From positions 930,001-994,000 of the forward strand of contig NC_015562.1 in NCBI RefSeq assembly GCF_000214415.1: a DNA stretch of 64,000 bases, written 5' to 3'. The notes under the pieces were generated by a model. That model was not told the origin of the DNA. It was given only the letters and a program-made list of their open reading frames with translations, and made no database searches. The stretch is from Methanotorris igneus Kol 5 (GTDB lineage: Archaea > AGJL01 > Methanococci > Methanococcales > Methanococcaceae). Shown here one piece after another: positions 4,175-58,412 of this stretch (positions are counted from its first letter, which is position 1; the number at the start of each line of letters is the position of its first letter). The translations under genes and the position numbers were made by a program.

Positions 4175-4192
4175 AAGGTATAAACAGATGAG

Positions 4193-4223
4193 GCGCCATC
4201 CGAAGGCTCTGCCAGGATGGCGC
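4193..4223 (+). promoter_or_regulatory. SECIS element of hdrA
   Basis: The hairpin has a 9-bp stem GCGCCATCC (4193-4201) with GGATGGCGC (4215-4223). The archaeal SECIS asymmetric bulge GAA (4202-4204) lies opposite A4214, capped by GGC-TCT-GCC. The fold matches the methanococcal consensus for directing Sec insertion at an upstream UGA. Confidence 0.93.
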
Positions 4224-4315
4224 TGATGGGGGCTATGTGGCCCTTGGGGGATTTACCTTTACCTTTATTTCATTAAGCTTCATTAGATCTTATAAAAAGA
4301 AAAAAAGGGATTATT

Positions 4316-8632: not shown

Positions 8633-8940
8633 AGGATGTGGGGAGTTCCGTTCTCCCCGAACGCTCCCTTGATGAAGTCCTCTGGACGGAACGGGAGAAC
8701 TCCTCAAGGTGGTTGAATATAGTTAAAAATTATAGTTGTGTGCGCTAAGAGTTTAGGCGAAAACTCCTGCGGAGTTTTCGCTACTCGAACCTTCGGTTCG
8801 ATGAACATAACTTCAATAAATTTATGGGGCATTAAACATTTAATTTCAAAATTTAAAGGAGGAAAAATGGCCACTTAAAAAATTAATGGCAAAACCCAAA
8901 GAGTTTTGCCGTATTATACTTAAGCCACCTTGAGGAGAGA
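8633..8940. repeat. GC-rich inverted-repeat region with a TIR-family insertion between vhuB and fwuB
   Basis: A GC-rich, strongly self-complementary stretch (8637-8712; GTTCCGT with ACGGAAC, GGAGTTC with GAACTCC) is followed by CTCCTCAAGGTGG (8700-8712). That sequence is exactly inverted at 8925-8937. Between them lies an element end TATAGTTGTGTGCG (8731-8744), the hairpins GCGAAAACTCC-tgc-GGAGTTTTCGC and CGAACCttcGGTTCG, and the GGCAAAACCC hairpin at 8889-8910. A truncated copy of the dispersed TIR family inside an older palindrome is inferred. No gene is seen. Confidence 0.55.
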
Positions 8941-12122: not shown

Positions 12123-12920
12123 ATGTATATACTAAAAGTCGCTTATGATGGAAGATATTCCTTCCAATCTCAACCACACAGAAACACTGTTGTTGATGTT
12201 TTAATGGATGCCTTAAAAGAATGTGGTTATTTAAAGGAAGAGAAGGTCATATTCAGTGGGGGAAGGACAGATAAGGGTGTCTCTGCCTTAGGAAATTTTG
12301 TTGTTGTTGAGTTAAACAAAGAGCCGATTTTATCATTCATATATTCAAAATTGAGAGGGAAAGGCATTTGGGTTTTGGGATATAGGGAGATAGATGAGAT
12401 TCCAAAGGTAGAGTTTAGGCATTATAGGTATATTTTGCCAGATGAGGGCTATAATATTGAATTAATGAGAGAGGCATCCAAAAAATTGATAGGAACACAT
12501 TCCTTCCACAATTTATCAAAAAAAGATAGGAGTAAAGAAAGAAGTCCAATAAGAACAATTTATGATATCAAAATAGATGCAAATGAGTACTTCATAACTA
12601 TTGACGTTATCGGAGAGAGTTTTTTATGGAATATGGTTAGGAAAATAGTCACTGCCTTATCCTATGTGGGAAGTGAAAAAAAGCCAGTTGATTGGATTGA
12701 TAAACTTTTAGATACACATTATAAGGAAGGCGTTCCTCCAGCACCAGCAGAGGGACTTATTTTAATAGAGGCAAAGGTTAATGTTGAATATATATACGAT
12801 AATTATGTTTTGAGGAGGTTTAGAGAAGAATGGGAAGAGGAATATGGAAAGAGTATAATGAAATTGGGTATTTGTAAGAGTATGTTAAATTTTTTAAATA
12901 AACCCAAAAATTCTAAATAA
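12123..12920 (+). CDS. truA: tRNA pseudouridine(38-40) synthase
   Basis: The 265-residue protein has the catalytic motif GGRTDKGVSALGNF (about residues 46-59, Asp in RTD), which defines TruA. It isomerises uridines at positions 38-40 in the anticodon arm. FLWNMVRKIV near residue 174 is the second conserved TruA block. It starts after TTTGGTGGTTTT. The divergent short second half is typical of methanococcal members. Confidence 0.88.
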   Translation: MYILKVAYDGRYSFQSQPHRNTVVDVLMDALKECGYLKEEKVIFSGGRTDKGVSALGNFVVVELNKEPILSFIYSKLRGKGIWVLGYREIDEIPKVEFRHYRYILPDEGYNIELMREASKKLIGTHSFHNLSKKDRSKERSPIRTIYDIKIDANEYFITIDVIGESFLWNMVRKIVTALSYVGSEKKPVDWIDKLLDTHYKEGVPPAPAEGLILIEAKVNVEYIYDNYVLRRFREEWEEEYGKSIMKLGICKSMLNFLNKPKNSK

Positions 12921-12941
12921 GATTAATACAAATCAGCTAAT

Positions 12942-13118
12942 GTGTGATATCATGTATTACATCTCAGCAATAGGAGTGGATATATCCTCGCAACGTCGCG
13001 TCGTTGCATCCCGCACTAATACCTCCTCGCTATGCTCGGAGGTATAAAATTCTTTCTTTAATGAAGTAAATAAGTGTGATATCATGTATTACATCTCAGC
13101 AATAGGAGTGGATATATC
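12942..13118 (+). repeat. Direct 45-bp duplication of a gene start, separated by an 87-bp palindromic insert
   Basis: Bases 12942-12986 are identical to 13074-13118. They contain the ribosome site and first 12 codons of the following gene. Between them, 12987-13073 holds two hairpins (GCAACG-tcgcgt-CGTTGC, and ATACCTCC-tcgctatgctc-GGAGGTAT). Read from the first copy (ATG 12952), the frame ends at TAA 13045-13047, so that copy is a decoy start of about 31 codons. Confidence 0.85.
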
Positions 13119-13797
13119 TTCAAATGATGTCTCAACGAATCCAAAGGTAAATGAAAAAATAGACTATGAGATAAAAAAGGAACTTCCAAAAATTGGGGTT
13201 AAGGCAGCATTAACAAATATCACTGGTGACGATATTGTTATAACTTCCTTTGTTCCAGAGAATTTAATTGAGGAGACAAACAAAATAATCATTGATATAT
13301 TAAAAAAACATGCTGAAGGTTTTAATGATTTAAACGGCATCTCAGATAACCCAGAGGATGCGGGTGAGGGGATTTCTTACGCTATTGCAAAGGCCGGCTC
13401 TAAATACGGAGATGCATTGATTGTTTCATTTGACACTTATGGGGGAGAAGATATCGTTAATGAGATGGCGTTGTTTGTGGAGGAAATCGGAAAAAAGTTT
13501 GGATATGACGCCTCTTCATCTGTCTCAAATAAACCAAAGAAAATTCATGGAGTGGGGTATGTTGGGGTTTCGACAGATGATCCCGTTGTGGTTATAACTT
13601 TTAAAGAACTTAAAGAACTTCCAAAATTGGCTGGAATGATATTTGGGGGGTTATTAGGGTTTGATAGGGTCTATTTTGTAAGGAAGGGAACACCAACAAA
13701 TATTCTTCCACCCGGGGTTATATACACAATGTCTGCATTTTTAAATGGGAATGTTATCGACTTGTATGATGGAATAAAGAGGAGATTTAACATATAG
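13084..13797 (+). CDS. Conserved archaeal protein of unknown function
   Basis: The 237-residue soluble protein begins MYYISAIGVDISSNDVSTNP. It contains SDNPEDAGEGISYAIAKAGSKYGDALIVSFDTYGG and ends RRFNI. I recognise no domain with confidence. The Gly/Asp-rich central part and many alternating strands suggest a compact alpha/beta fold. Its 5' end is duplicated immediately upstream. Its stop codon TAG is formed by the left end of an inverted-repeat element (TATAGTCG, 13793 onward), so the original C-terminus may have been different. Confidence 0.75.
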   Translation: MYYISAIGVDISSNDVSTNPKVNEKIDYEIKKELPKIGVKAALTNITGDDIVITSFVPENLIEETNKIIIDILKKHAEGFNDLNGISDNPEDAGEGISYAIAKAGSKYGDALIVSFDTYGGEDIVNEMALFVEEIGKKFGYDASSSVSNKPKKIHGVGYVGVSTDDPVVVITFKELKELPKLAGMIFGGLLGFDRVYFVRKGTPTNILPPGVIYTMSAFLNGNVIDLYDGIKRRFNI

Positions 13798-21785: not shown

Positions 21786-21844
21786 TGAAACTTTAGAAAA
21801 GTTTCATCAAAAGGGATGCACTGCCTCGCTTCGCTCGGTAGTGC
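21786..21844 (+). terminator. Two hairpins after hisH
   Basis: TGAAACTTT-ag-AAAAGTTTCA (21786-21806) is followed by GCACTGCC-tcgcttcgctc-GGTAGTGC (21818-21844). The second loop is the same mirror motif TCGCTTCGCTC found in other small hairpin inserts of this window. A terminator, or a mobile hairpin, is inferred. Confidence 0.45.
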
Positions 21845-22221: not shown

Positions 22222-23000
22222 GTTTGAATTACTCATCCATTAAAACAAGGATGGAAACGAACAAGAACCATACGACCTTGCGGCAATTTTTGGTGTTTGA
22301 ATTACTCATCCATTAAAACAAGGATGGAAACTCCCAACCTCCTTCTCCAAGTTCTCAAATATCTTTCTGTTTGAATTACTCATCCATTAAAACAAGGATG
22401 GAAACTATATTCAAATTCTCTGTCTGCTATCTTATCAATAGTTTGAATTACTCATCCATTAAAACAAGGATGGAAACTCAATTAACTGGTAATAGTCGCA
22501 AACTATATTTTTTCCCTCGTTTGGATTGCTTATCCATTAAAACAAGGATGGAAACATCCCTGCTTCTGTTATATAACTTCCGTAAATTCTAGTTTGAATT
22601 GCTTATCCATTAAAACAAGGATGGAAACAGATAATATTAACTCTTTGTGTCTTAATGCCAAATCGTTTGAATTGCTTATCCATTAAAACAAGGATGGAAA
22701 CCGTATGCTTCAACACCTGCTTTGTATTCATCTACAGGTTTGAATACCTCATCCATTAAAACAAGGATGGAAACAAATCTTTTCCGCTGGCGGGCTCCCA
22801 GCCAACCAGCCTGTTTGAATACCTCATCCATTAAAACAAGGATGGAAACTGAATAATGTTAAAAATTTCATCTAAATTTGTGTCACCGTTTGAATTACTC
22901 ATCCATTAAAACAAGGATGGAAACTATGCATAGAAATTATTATCTTTTATTTTTTGTATTATTGTTTGAATTACTCATCCATTAAAACAAGGATGGAAAC
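22222..23000 (+). CRISPR. CRISPR array, 11 repeats of 37 bp with 10 spacers
   Basis: The repeats start at 22222, 22295, 22369, 22441, 22519, 22592, 22665, 22738, 22813, 22888 and 22964. Each is 37 bp, starting GTTTGAATTACTCATCC and ending ACAAGGATGGAAAC, with spacers of 35-41 bp. Internal variants occur (GGATTGCTTATCC, GAATTGCTTATCC, GAATACCTCATCC). The repeat ends in a GAAAC-type 3' handle typical of archaeal type I/III systems. No cas genes lie in the window. Confidence 0.98.
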
Positions 23001-23040
23001 ATTGTTTTGTTATTTTAAGTGGTAATGATAGTAATTATTT

Positions 23041-23436
23041 ATGTGTATAATTGGAAAAATGTTATTGGTGGTATGTATAGGATTTGTAAAATATACTATG
23101 ATGTTTTTTGGTGTTGGTTTTTTATTGTCGTTAATAATATTGTATGTTGATATTTATGTAGTTAGAATATTTTTGGGTATAATACTTGCTTTATTGTGGT
23201 TTGTTTATATTTGGTATGTTGCTTATAAGATACTTGTTAGTAAGTATTGTTGGATTATTTTATTGCCAGTGTTGTTGTTAGCATTGATGAGTGGTATAAT
23301 TCCGTTTATATTATTGGTACTTTGGATATATGTTTGTAGAGTTATTACAATTTCATCTAAAAGGTCGCTTGAAAAGAAAGGCATATATAATTTGTTTGAT
23401 TTGATTAGATATATTAGAAAATCAAGTAAAAAGTAG
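23041..23436 (+). CDS. Small multi-pass membrane protein located inside the CRISPR locus
   Basis: The 131-residue protein consists of about four hydrophobic helices and a short basic tail (SSKRSLEKKGIYN... RKSSKK). It lies in the 537-nt gap between the eleventh repeat and a final isolated repeat. I recognise no family. Codon choice is extremely AT-rich and lacks a clear ribosome site, so a young or foreign gene is likely. It could be a viral or plasmid fragment or an accessory membrane protein. Confidence 0.55.
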   Translation: MCIIGKMLLVVCIGFVKYTMMFFGVGFLLSLIILYVDIYVVRIFLGIILALLWFVYIWYVAYKILVSKYCWIILLPVLLLALMSGIIPFILLVLWIYVCRVITISSKRSLEKKGIYNLFDLIRYIRKSSKK

Positions 23437-23451
23437 CGTGGGTGATAAAAT

Positions 23452-23559
23452 ATGCATGTTTATGATGAAAAAGTTTATGTTTATTATGTGGATAGGTTGA
23501 TTACCTATAATGATTTGTTTGTATTTGGTAATAAAGTGTTTGAATTACTTATCCATTAA
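23452..23559 (+). CDS. Tiny ORF ending inside the last CRISPR repeat
   Basis: This 35-codon frame (MHVYDEKVYVYYVDRL...) follows a strong ribosome site GGGTGATAAAAT. It terminates at TAA 23557-23559 within the isolated repeat, so its last eight codons are repeat sequence. It may be the 5' remnant of a larger gene cut by the repeat. It is coupled to the preceding membrane gene by a 15-nt gap. Confidence 0.4.
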   Translation: MHVYDEKVYVYYVDRLITYNDLFVFGNKVFELLIH

Positions 23560-23574
23560 AACAAGGATGGAAAC
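23538..23574 (+). CRISPR. Isolated terminal CRISPR repeat
   Basis: A full 37-bp repeat (variant GAATTACTTATCC) lies 537 nt after the main array, in the same orientation. It is probably the original distal end of the array. Confidence 0.9.
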
Positions 23575-28600: not shown

Positions 28601-28667
28601 ATAAAAAATAAATAAAAAAGCAAAAACAAAAGATTAAATAAAAATAATTAAAACTGTGGAGGGTTTT

Positions 28668-28817
28668 TATAGTTGTGTGCGAATTTTTTTAAACTTATTA
28701 TAAAAACTTATAAAATTTTAAGTTGTCATTTTTCCTCCTTTAAATTTTGAAATTGAGTATTTAATGCCTTATAAATTTTATTAAAGTTATGTTCAGTTTC
28801 TAACGCACACAACTATA
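28668..28817. mobile_element. MITE-like element, about 150 bp
   Basis: The terminal repeats TATAGTTGTGTGCG (28668-28681) and CGCACACAACTATA (28804-28817) are perfectly inverted. It is non-coding. The interior CCTCCTTTAAATTTTGAAAT is shared (inverted) with 8837-8866. Its right end lies two bases from the HesB-gene SECIS. Confidence 0.85.
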
Positions 28818-28818
28818 A

Positions 28819-51689: not shown

Positions 51690-52702
51690 GCTCATCTTCG
51701 TTTAGGATTACATATATAAATGATAAACTTAATATTGTAATCTTATGAGCGTCGAGGTATATAAATTATTCATACCAAAGGATGAAGAATGTATTGAAGT
51801 TATAAGAAGGGTTCGATGGGGTAATGGATATATTTGTCCATACTGTTAAACAAAAACCTTCGGTTTTTGTAGCTCTACGCTTCGCTCCGATGGTTCGAAA
51901 GATGTTGTTTTAAAAGGTAAAGAAAGACGCAAACCCTACATCCAAAGATACAGATGTAACTCGTGTAAAAGACACTTCAACGATTTAACTGGAACGATAT
52001 TTGCTAAAAAACGAATAACTTTGGGAGAAATGTTTTATATAGCCAAAAATTTAGGAAACTCCTCAATCAATCAAATGTCTAAGGAATTGGGAAGAGATTA
52101 TAGAACAGTTCATTCGTTTGCAAAAGAAATTATGGAGTTATCTGAAAAGGACAATCTTTTAAAAAAATTACTGGAAAAGAATTGGAGATAGATGAATTCT
52201 ACGTTAATGCTGGAGATAAAGGCATTAAAAAAGAAAATAGTCGAAAAAGAGGCCTAAAAAGAAAAGGCAGAGGTACGTATAAAAGTGAAAGGCCTCCAAT
52301 AATAACCCTATATAATCGAACGGACAAAAGAGTACTTACCTCCGTTGAAACGAATTTAAGCAAGACCAAAATTTGGAAAATGATTAGCGAGGTTAATTCA
52401 GACGATTTAATTGTTAATACAGACGAATATACCATTTACGAAAATTTAGAATCTCATCCAAAAGTATTTAAACATTTGACAGTTAATCATGCATCGAAAG
52501 AATACTCTAACGGCATCTCCCACGTTAATAACTGCGAATGCTTCCATTCGATAATCAAACCCCATTTAAGAAAACATCGAGGCATTAGTCGAAGAAATCT
52601 CCACTTATATGTAAGCTTCTATACATTTATCTATAACTATAAATCGAACTGGTTCTCTAAATTACTATCGCTTATATTATGTAATGATACTTGAAGATGA
52701 GC
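51690..52702 (+). mobile_element. IS1595-like insertion sequence (decayed), about 1.0 kb
   Basis: The ends GCTCATCTTC....ATTACATA are inverted at both sides (left from 51690, right ending 52702). They enclose one transposase frame broken by an insert and a frameshift. No convincing target duplication is visible. A 150-bp MITE at 41430 shares these ends. Confidence 0.8.
51745..52694 (+). pseudogene. IS1595/ISXO2-like transposase, disrupted
   Basis: The frame from ATG 51745 shows a zinc ribbon (YICPYC ... YRCNSCKRHF). It is interrupted at 51847-51891 by a 45-nt hairpin insert that brings an in-frame TAA immediately after CPYC. Without the insert it would read CPYCGSKDVV. A second lesion near the A-run at 52156-52165 shifts the frame. 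The remainder from about 52182 carries the catalytic DDE-type blocks EIDEFYVNAGDKG, NTDEYTIYEN and the final CECFHSIIKPHLRKHRG. It is inactive unless recoded. Confidence 0.85.
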
Positions 52703-58169: not shown

Positions 58170-58412
58170 AGGGTAGTTTGCATTTATAAATGACCACAAT
58201 TTTCAATGAAATAAAAAGATAAATTATTCTCTAACACCTTTAAAAAAGGTTCGAGCAGCGAAAACTCCACAGAAGTTTTCGCCTAAACTCTTAGCGCACA
58301 CAACTATAAATGACATTTAGCATAACTCAAATTCAAATTAGAATTTTATTAAATTTGCTTAGAAATTGAAATTTAAGATTTGTGGATGTGTTATATTTCG
58401 TAGAACGACTAT
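58170..58412. mobile_element. MITE-like elements between lysR and PCNA gene
   Basis: CTTAGCGCACACAACTATAA (about 58290-58309) is an inverted-repeat-family right end. Next to it, GCGAAAACTCC-acag-AAGTTTTCGC and a GGTTCGAGC hairpin match, inverted, the element at 8731. CGTAGAACGACTATA (58398-58412) is another end of the TATAGTCGTTCTGC subtype. Nested or fused copies are inferred. No gene is present in the 486-nt gap. Confidence 0.65.

Follow-up and report, generated by a model that had tools for sequence, protein, structure and literature searches.

Target duplications left by prokaryotic transposons usually measure from a few to some twenty bases. In CRISPR spacer acquisition by Cas1-Cas2, a short piece is inserted and a whole repeat of about 30–37 nt is duplicated by way of two distant nicks; REP/REPIN elements, which go with a Y1 transposase, are dispersed GC-rich hairpins. 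The YPAL/RU-2 element of Yersinia, about 168 bp in size, has targets at or near dyad symmetry and target duplications of variable length, 3–26 bp, according to the available part of its description (PMC2229807). The same partial account gives the target duplication of the RPE of Rickettsia as '?' and refers to palindromic repetitive elements of Methanocaldococcus jannaschii (Suyama, Lathe and Bork, 2005), some of them in coding regions (PMC2229807).

The locus described here lies in the genome of Methanotorris igneus Kol 5, a single contig of 1,854,197 bases with one sister genome (G001) in the genus; the window is the whole stretch of 64,000 nucleotides that was analysed (positions 930,001 to 994,000 of NC_015562.1). 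An earlier reading of the window, made from its letters and here called the sequence-only reading, had reported a gene start perfectly duplicated around a hairpin insert. The duplication is real: positions 12942–12989 and 13074–13121 are direct copies, spaced 132 nt start to start, which are identical over the first 45 nt and at 47 of 48 positions over their full length (one mismatch), the 48-nt left copy finishing exactly before 12990, the first base of the hairpin part. The features of the locus, with the second copy of the element in the window, are the following.

12123–12920, forward strand: TruA, tRNA pseudouridine synthase, intact; upstream neighbour of the gene with the duplicated start.
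12942–12989, forward strand: vestigial left copy of the gene start, 47/48 identical to 13074–13121 and abutting hp1.
12952–13047, forward strand: frame opened by the left copy, MYYISAIGVDISS, followed by the element-encoded QRRVVASRTNTSSLCSEV; stop at the end of hp2.
12990–13007, forward strand: hairpin hp1, which marks the element's exact end, with 6-bp stem GCAACG/CGTTGC and 6-nt loop (fold and structure catalogue).
13008–13018, forward strand: linker ATCCCGCACTA between hp1 and hp2, with ATC at its start in most aligned relatives (alignment).
13019–13045, forward strand: hairpin hp2, 8-bp stem ATACCTCC/GGAGGTAT and 11-nt loop TCGCTATGCTC (fold and structure catalogue).
13046–13073, forward strand: 28-nt AT-rich stretch from hp2 to the right copy, variable among other copies of the element.
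13074–13121, forward strand: right copy with the intact gene start (direct-repeat comparison).
13084–13797, forward strand: gene with the duplicated start, 237 aa, with no Pfam or NCBIfam match.
21786–21844, forward strand: second member of the element family within the window, for which no flanking duplication was found.

The insert had been called GC-rich as a whole; this holds for its first two thirds and fails for the rest, since the last 28 nt are AT-rich. The fold of positions 12980–13060 beats 200 of 200 shuffles of the same stretch (z −4.53), and, at 45.5, the flank score of the locus is higher than at any of 2,501 random sites taken from the same genome sample, for which the 99% level is 15.5 and the maximum 39. 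The supposed resemblance of the insert loop to other hairpins nearby is borne out by the pattern TCGCTNNGCTC, which, with at most one mismatch, occurs nine times in the window against 2.04 expected; two of the nine have the exact loop, one of them inside the element copy at 21786–21844. The frame entered from the upstream copy comprises 31 residues and ends with hp2; judged from the letters, it is only possible that this copy offers a competing ribosome start to the gene at 13084. The plasmid collection contained no match for 12900–13200, which ruled out a plasmid origin of the locus. Rfam searches at the gathering score gave 14 matches in the window and none on the hairpin element, and the element was accordingly discarded as an Rfam RNA family. 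An flpD RNA (Rfam RF01737) scores above this threshold at 4184–4229.

The architecture of the element, about 55–60 nt in all, consists of hairpin hp1, the ATC-linker and hairpin hp2. Seven places in the host genome match window positions 12930–13130; a covariance model, R1, gave 33 matches there at E <= 0.01, and a wider model, R2, in which only the base pairs of hp2 were modelled, gave at least 74 at E <= 0.001. R2 matches, some of them weak (e.g., in genome G007), were found in at least 21 of the 36 genomes of the class, namely in at least 8 of 22 of the host's own family and at least 13 of 14 of a second family, and this distribution covers the class alone, because the phylum-wide search set consisted of the same 36 genomes. 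The architecture is constant and the sequence changes: hp1 stems include GCAAC, GAAAC, GAACC, CCAAC and others, and hp2 mostly has a stem of 8 bp and an 11-nt loop of the TCGCTTCGCTC type, the stem being kept while its letters vary among subfamilies. The conservation of stems in the regular-expression catalogue of element copies is in part a product of its construction, since perfect stems were required. Covariation in hp1 is limited to two pairs changed on both sides, a value reached by 20 of 500 shuffles. A pattern scan of named genomes gave no matches; a second pattern scan gave three stretches, two of them in a Methanocaldococcaceae MAG, where a duplication can be made out by eye, and the third, apparently unrelated, in a Flavobacteriales MAG. 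By its size, copy number and filled and empty sites, the element is short, non-autonomous, multicopy and mobile, as MITEs are; its ends are two separate hairpins and do not form the terminal inverted repeats that MITEs share. The literature search found no paper on the two-hairpin element, a weak negative, as most subscription papers lay outside its scope.

Several other repeats occur nearby. A CRISPR array of 12 repeats (Rfam CRISPR-DR7) occupies window positions 22222–23574, and the element copy at 21786–21844 ends 378 bases before its first repeat; other element copies also lie beside CRISPR repeats (L105, L111, L116–L118, L124, L126, L127, L132). A second, MITE-like repeat type with ends like TATAGTTGTGTGCG / CGCACACAACTATA is found at 28666–28818, 8730–8793 and 58246–58309, the repeats at 8730 and 58246 being 95% complementary over 64 nt. 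At 51780–52000, a coding-looking stretch, which by eye resembles a transposase, is broken by several small hairpins in a row. Yet another repeated hairpin, GGCAAAACC...GGTTTTGCCGTATAATTTGG, lies beside or under the two-hairpin element at L128, L133 and L123.

The frequency of flanking duplications was assessed in two ways. An unbiased repeat scan over 464 kb, equal to 25% of the genome (the window and 20 regular 20-kb samples), left 139 pairs, 125 with CRISPR-repeat motifs and 14 without; five of these 14 flank two-hairpin elements (109179, 942942, 576290, 1658787 and 1757735), and the other nine are repeats in genes or are CRISPR-related. For the structure catalogue, comprising 45 distinct copies, left and right flanks were aligned with the 2,501 random sites as the null. 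The flank alignment exceeds the 99% random level in 24 copies, and in 18 the duplication above this level has its inner end at most 10 nt from hp1 (17 once a match to a CRISPR repeat, L117, is dropped). Duplications were found in 19 of 38 further R2-ranked copies, 35 of which come from the second family (P < 0.01, inner end at most 12 nt from hp1), and five more of the 38 have larger gaps, mostly with extra hairpins in between. The pooled set of 37 duplications, whose rows are not all independent owing to common targets (L109 twice, L192/L219, L180/L217, L207/L222), ranges from 25 to 99 nt in length with a median of 41; the inner end is at most 3 nt from hp1 in 29 of the 37, and the gap on the hp2 side varies from −3 to 104 nt. 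The regular-expression hits L045 and L006, repeat copies of one site and, before pooling, L117 were left out; L181–L186 and the own-genus copies L167, L168, L187 and L188 stand outside the 38-hit test. Further duplications noted in the scan or by eye are outside the counts (L135, L145, L149, L151, L152, L155, L156, L159; L165, L166). The suggestion that the outer edge of the duplication stops at a start or stop codon was given up, the alignment of L003 suggesting that the outer part has decayed.

The element is dispersed among heat-loving methanogenic archaea, joined precisely at its hp1 end and variably on its hp2 side, with many duplications of 25–99 nt. The search for further long duplications around related hairpins, proposed along with the idea of a hairpin element that duplicates long targets, has yielded numerous cases, and that idea has gained accordingly. 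Of all the readings, a local duplication that arose only once, or an error of assembly, is the least probable, as 37 sites in several genomes show the pattern; an assembly error behind the window duplication is unlikely, since the same pattern is present in several separate assemblies and one insertion is common to both sister species.

We regard the insert as probably a non-autonomous mobile two-hairpin element with long and variable target duplications. Against this reading stand the copies that lack such a duplication by the threshold used, 27 of the 45 catalogued and 19 of the 38 model hits. Several duplication-free copies adjoin CRISPR arrays or sit in strings of hairpins, and the missing duplications may in part be due to such surroundings or to age. 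The lengths of 25–99 nt are also incompatible with one fixed stagger, and an identical product would be obtained by template switching during replication or break repair, where a polymerase would halt in a gene end, copy a distant hairpin element and resume 25–99 nt back, needing no dedicated enzyme. Template switching, which we hold to be unlikely though a serious contender, agrees with the variable duplication length and the variable filler on the hp2 side, which sometimes contains more hairpins, as well as with the absence of both Y1 and RVT_1 matches from the host genome. It agrees less well with the exact hp1 end, since the copied stretch would nearly always have to begin at one particular base of a recurrent element; the exactness of this end therefore favours a defined element end.

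Empty sites were sought in the sister species, as had been advised for the window locus, where only one copy of the duplicated piece was found. In all, four filled sites, the window included, are single-copy in the sister genome: the duplicated pieces of the window, L048 and L003 have two matches in the host genome and one at the G001 locus, and that of L025 (HisB, G001) has two matches in G001 and one in the host genome (G000). The window insertion is younger than the species split, since its copies differ at 1 of 48 positions and comparison with the sister's single copy gives 8 and 9 differences in 45, so the event was rightly called recent. Both sister species have an insertion at the start of ilvN, the gene for the acetolactate synthase small subunit, and one hp2 pair differs between the two through changes on both sides; in each species, the two copies have species-specific letters in common, which suggests homogenisation between them. 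At L048 (G000:C1:1658787), the copies are 99 nt long with 83 identical positions, differ largely at codon third positions, and the left copy is closer to the sister at several of these; this seems to be an old insertion whose functional copy has moved on. At L141 (G001:C36:15000-15760), one gene end is present in three copies with two different hairpin elements between them, apparently two successive insertions at one site.

The insertion sites show a clear orientation. With hp1 placed before hp2, 26 of the 37 sites have an open frame that continues out of the right copy and 6 have one that enters the left copy from the left, 5 sites having both; the hp1 junction lies inside a gene, with the copy reaching outward past the gene end, at 21 sites, and the mirror case was found once (P 1.1e-5). 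Random positions are unbiased (1243 and 1235 of 2000), and the bias is not a product of the gap filter, as ten more sites taken without the filter give 5 versus 0, with 1 both and 4 neither. Simple survival would permit both directions; we therefore infer that the one-sided bias is a property of the reaction, e.g., a first cut in intergenic DNA. Family models indicate that the junction genes, among them those of the acetolactate synthase small subunit, HisB and others, are complete. Insertions in tRNA genes number seven, and each of these loci is predicted to contain an intact tRNA; the junction lies in the T-arm, 16–24 nt from the tRNA 3' end, at the five measured sites, and the other two junctions were assigned to the T-arm by motif. 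L192 and L219 may stem from a single event. Targets in protein genes showed no dyad preference (32 sites, 160 controls, P 0.19 and 0.54) and are not more hairpin-prone than neighbouring positions. One copy, L004 (G000:C1:616855-616917), is inserted in frame in the gene of a DASS-family anion transporter, with no flanking duplication.

These sites also bear on the possibility that the copy and its hairpins form a selected control device, kept as a gene leader with a short frame, terminator or attenuator. The left copy indeed reads in frame into the element and stops there at both the window gene and ilvN, and both sister species have the ilvN insertion and its frame in intact form. A leader is impossible, however, for the many insertions at gene 3' ends or in tRNA genes, and the four sites are empty in the sister, so that we judge such a device very improbable.

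With the mobile two-hairpin element retained as the preferred reading, an insertion could proceed as follows. The target would be opened by two distant nicks on opposite strands, or by an equivalent gap; hp1 would be joined at the nick lying inside the gene, and the long single strands would be filled in, giving the duplication. In a protein gene the duplicated piece would hold the end with the start or the stop, in a tRNA gene the 3' part, and for this reason the gene would stay whole and the insertion would survive. A tentative possibility is that this amounts to an undescribed transposition, in which an archaeal enzyme or a dedicated repair route joins hairpin-ended DNA inside a gene end or a tRNA T-arm and makes the second joining 25–99 nt away; as the second joining would fall outside the gene, each insertion would rebuild the gene hit. 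If this route were true, the 21-to-1 bias would be a built-in property of the reaction.

Searches for a mobiliser of the element gave negative results, which count against its mobility. The Y1_Tnp model (PF01797) had no match in the host genome, while the control was positive in 5 of 14 genomes; RVT_1 (PF00078) had no match in the host genome and matched 1 of the 36 genomes of the class (G021), and a direct-repeat search to 8 kb in the 464-kb sample found no hairpin-flanked gene that could act as mobiliser. The sole RVT_1 match, L226 (G021:C1:26095-26718), lies in an open frame of 1,116 codons. The GC-rich hairpins with conserved loops, dispersed between genes, recall REP or IS200-like hairpins, which a Y1 (HUH) transposase moves in single-stranded form. 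Such an identity was rejected on the absence of Y1 from the host and is highly improbable; to our knowledge, elements of this kind also make no target duplication. In SINE-like retroposition, an RNA ending in hp1 would be reverse-transcribed at a nick (target-primed), which would match the one exact structured end, the variable other end and the long, variable duplications. A known reverse transcriptase as the mover was nevertheless rejected, RVT_1 being absent from the host and found in one class genome against at least 21 with the element; retroposition is quite improbable, though a reverse transcriptase outside the RVT_1 model is possible as a source. The mobiliser is probably neither a Y1 transposase nor an RVT_1-family reverse transcriptase. 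This leaves, as candidate mechanisms, template switching and a joining enzyme that nicks the target at distant points.

Long duplications make insertions at gene ends harmless, which would let the element spread in a compact genome, leaving behind gene-end copies and new short frames. The system offers many dated insertions, empty sites in the sister, an exact hp1 end and no obvious enzyme; if the mobiliser were found, a joining chemistry that is possibly new could be tested directly.

Among known systems, REP/REPIN elements differ from the present one in that its host has no Y1_Tnp match and its flanking duplications are long. The combination of a short insert and a long duplication is common to Cas1-Cas2 acquisition, where the duplication is fixed in length and site, whereas here it spans 25–99 nt and may involve any gene end. 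The palindromic repeats of M. jannaschii come from the same archaeal order and, going by the partial description, share the palindromic character (PMC2229807). RPE, as far as the accessible parts of the sources describe them, are likewise palindromic, contain open reading frames and insert in protein and RNA genes, but they extend genes, whereas the junction genes of the present element are mostly rebuilt by duplication (PMC10969869, PMC2229807). The RPE-like mode, insertion in frame within a coding sequence, is represented here by the single copy L004, insertion at gene ends being otherwise the rule. The nearest described behaviour appears to be that of YPAL/RU-2, likened to the present element by description only: in the available part of the account, it is a small mobile palindromic repeat with no terminal inverted repeats at its ends, with empty and filled sites in sister genomes and target duplications of variable length, and its dyad targets are comparable to the tRNA T-arm targets found here (PMC2229807). 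That element is bacterial, larger at about 168 bp and makes shorter duplications, and the same part of the account does not mention an exact single-hairpin end with a gene-end bias, which the present element has (PMC2229807). At 25–99 nt, the target duplications described here are far longer than those usual for prokaryotic transposons and than the 3–26 bp that the partial account gives for YPAL (PMC2229807).
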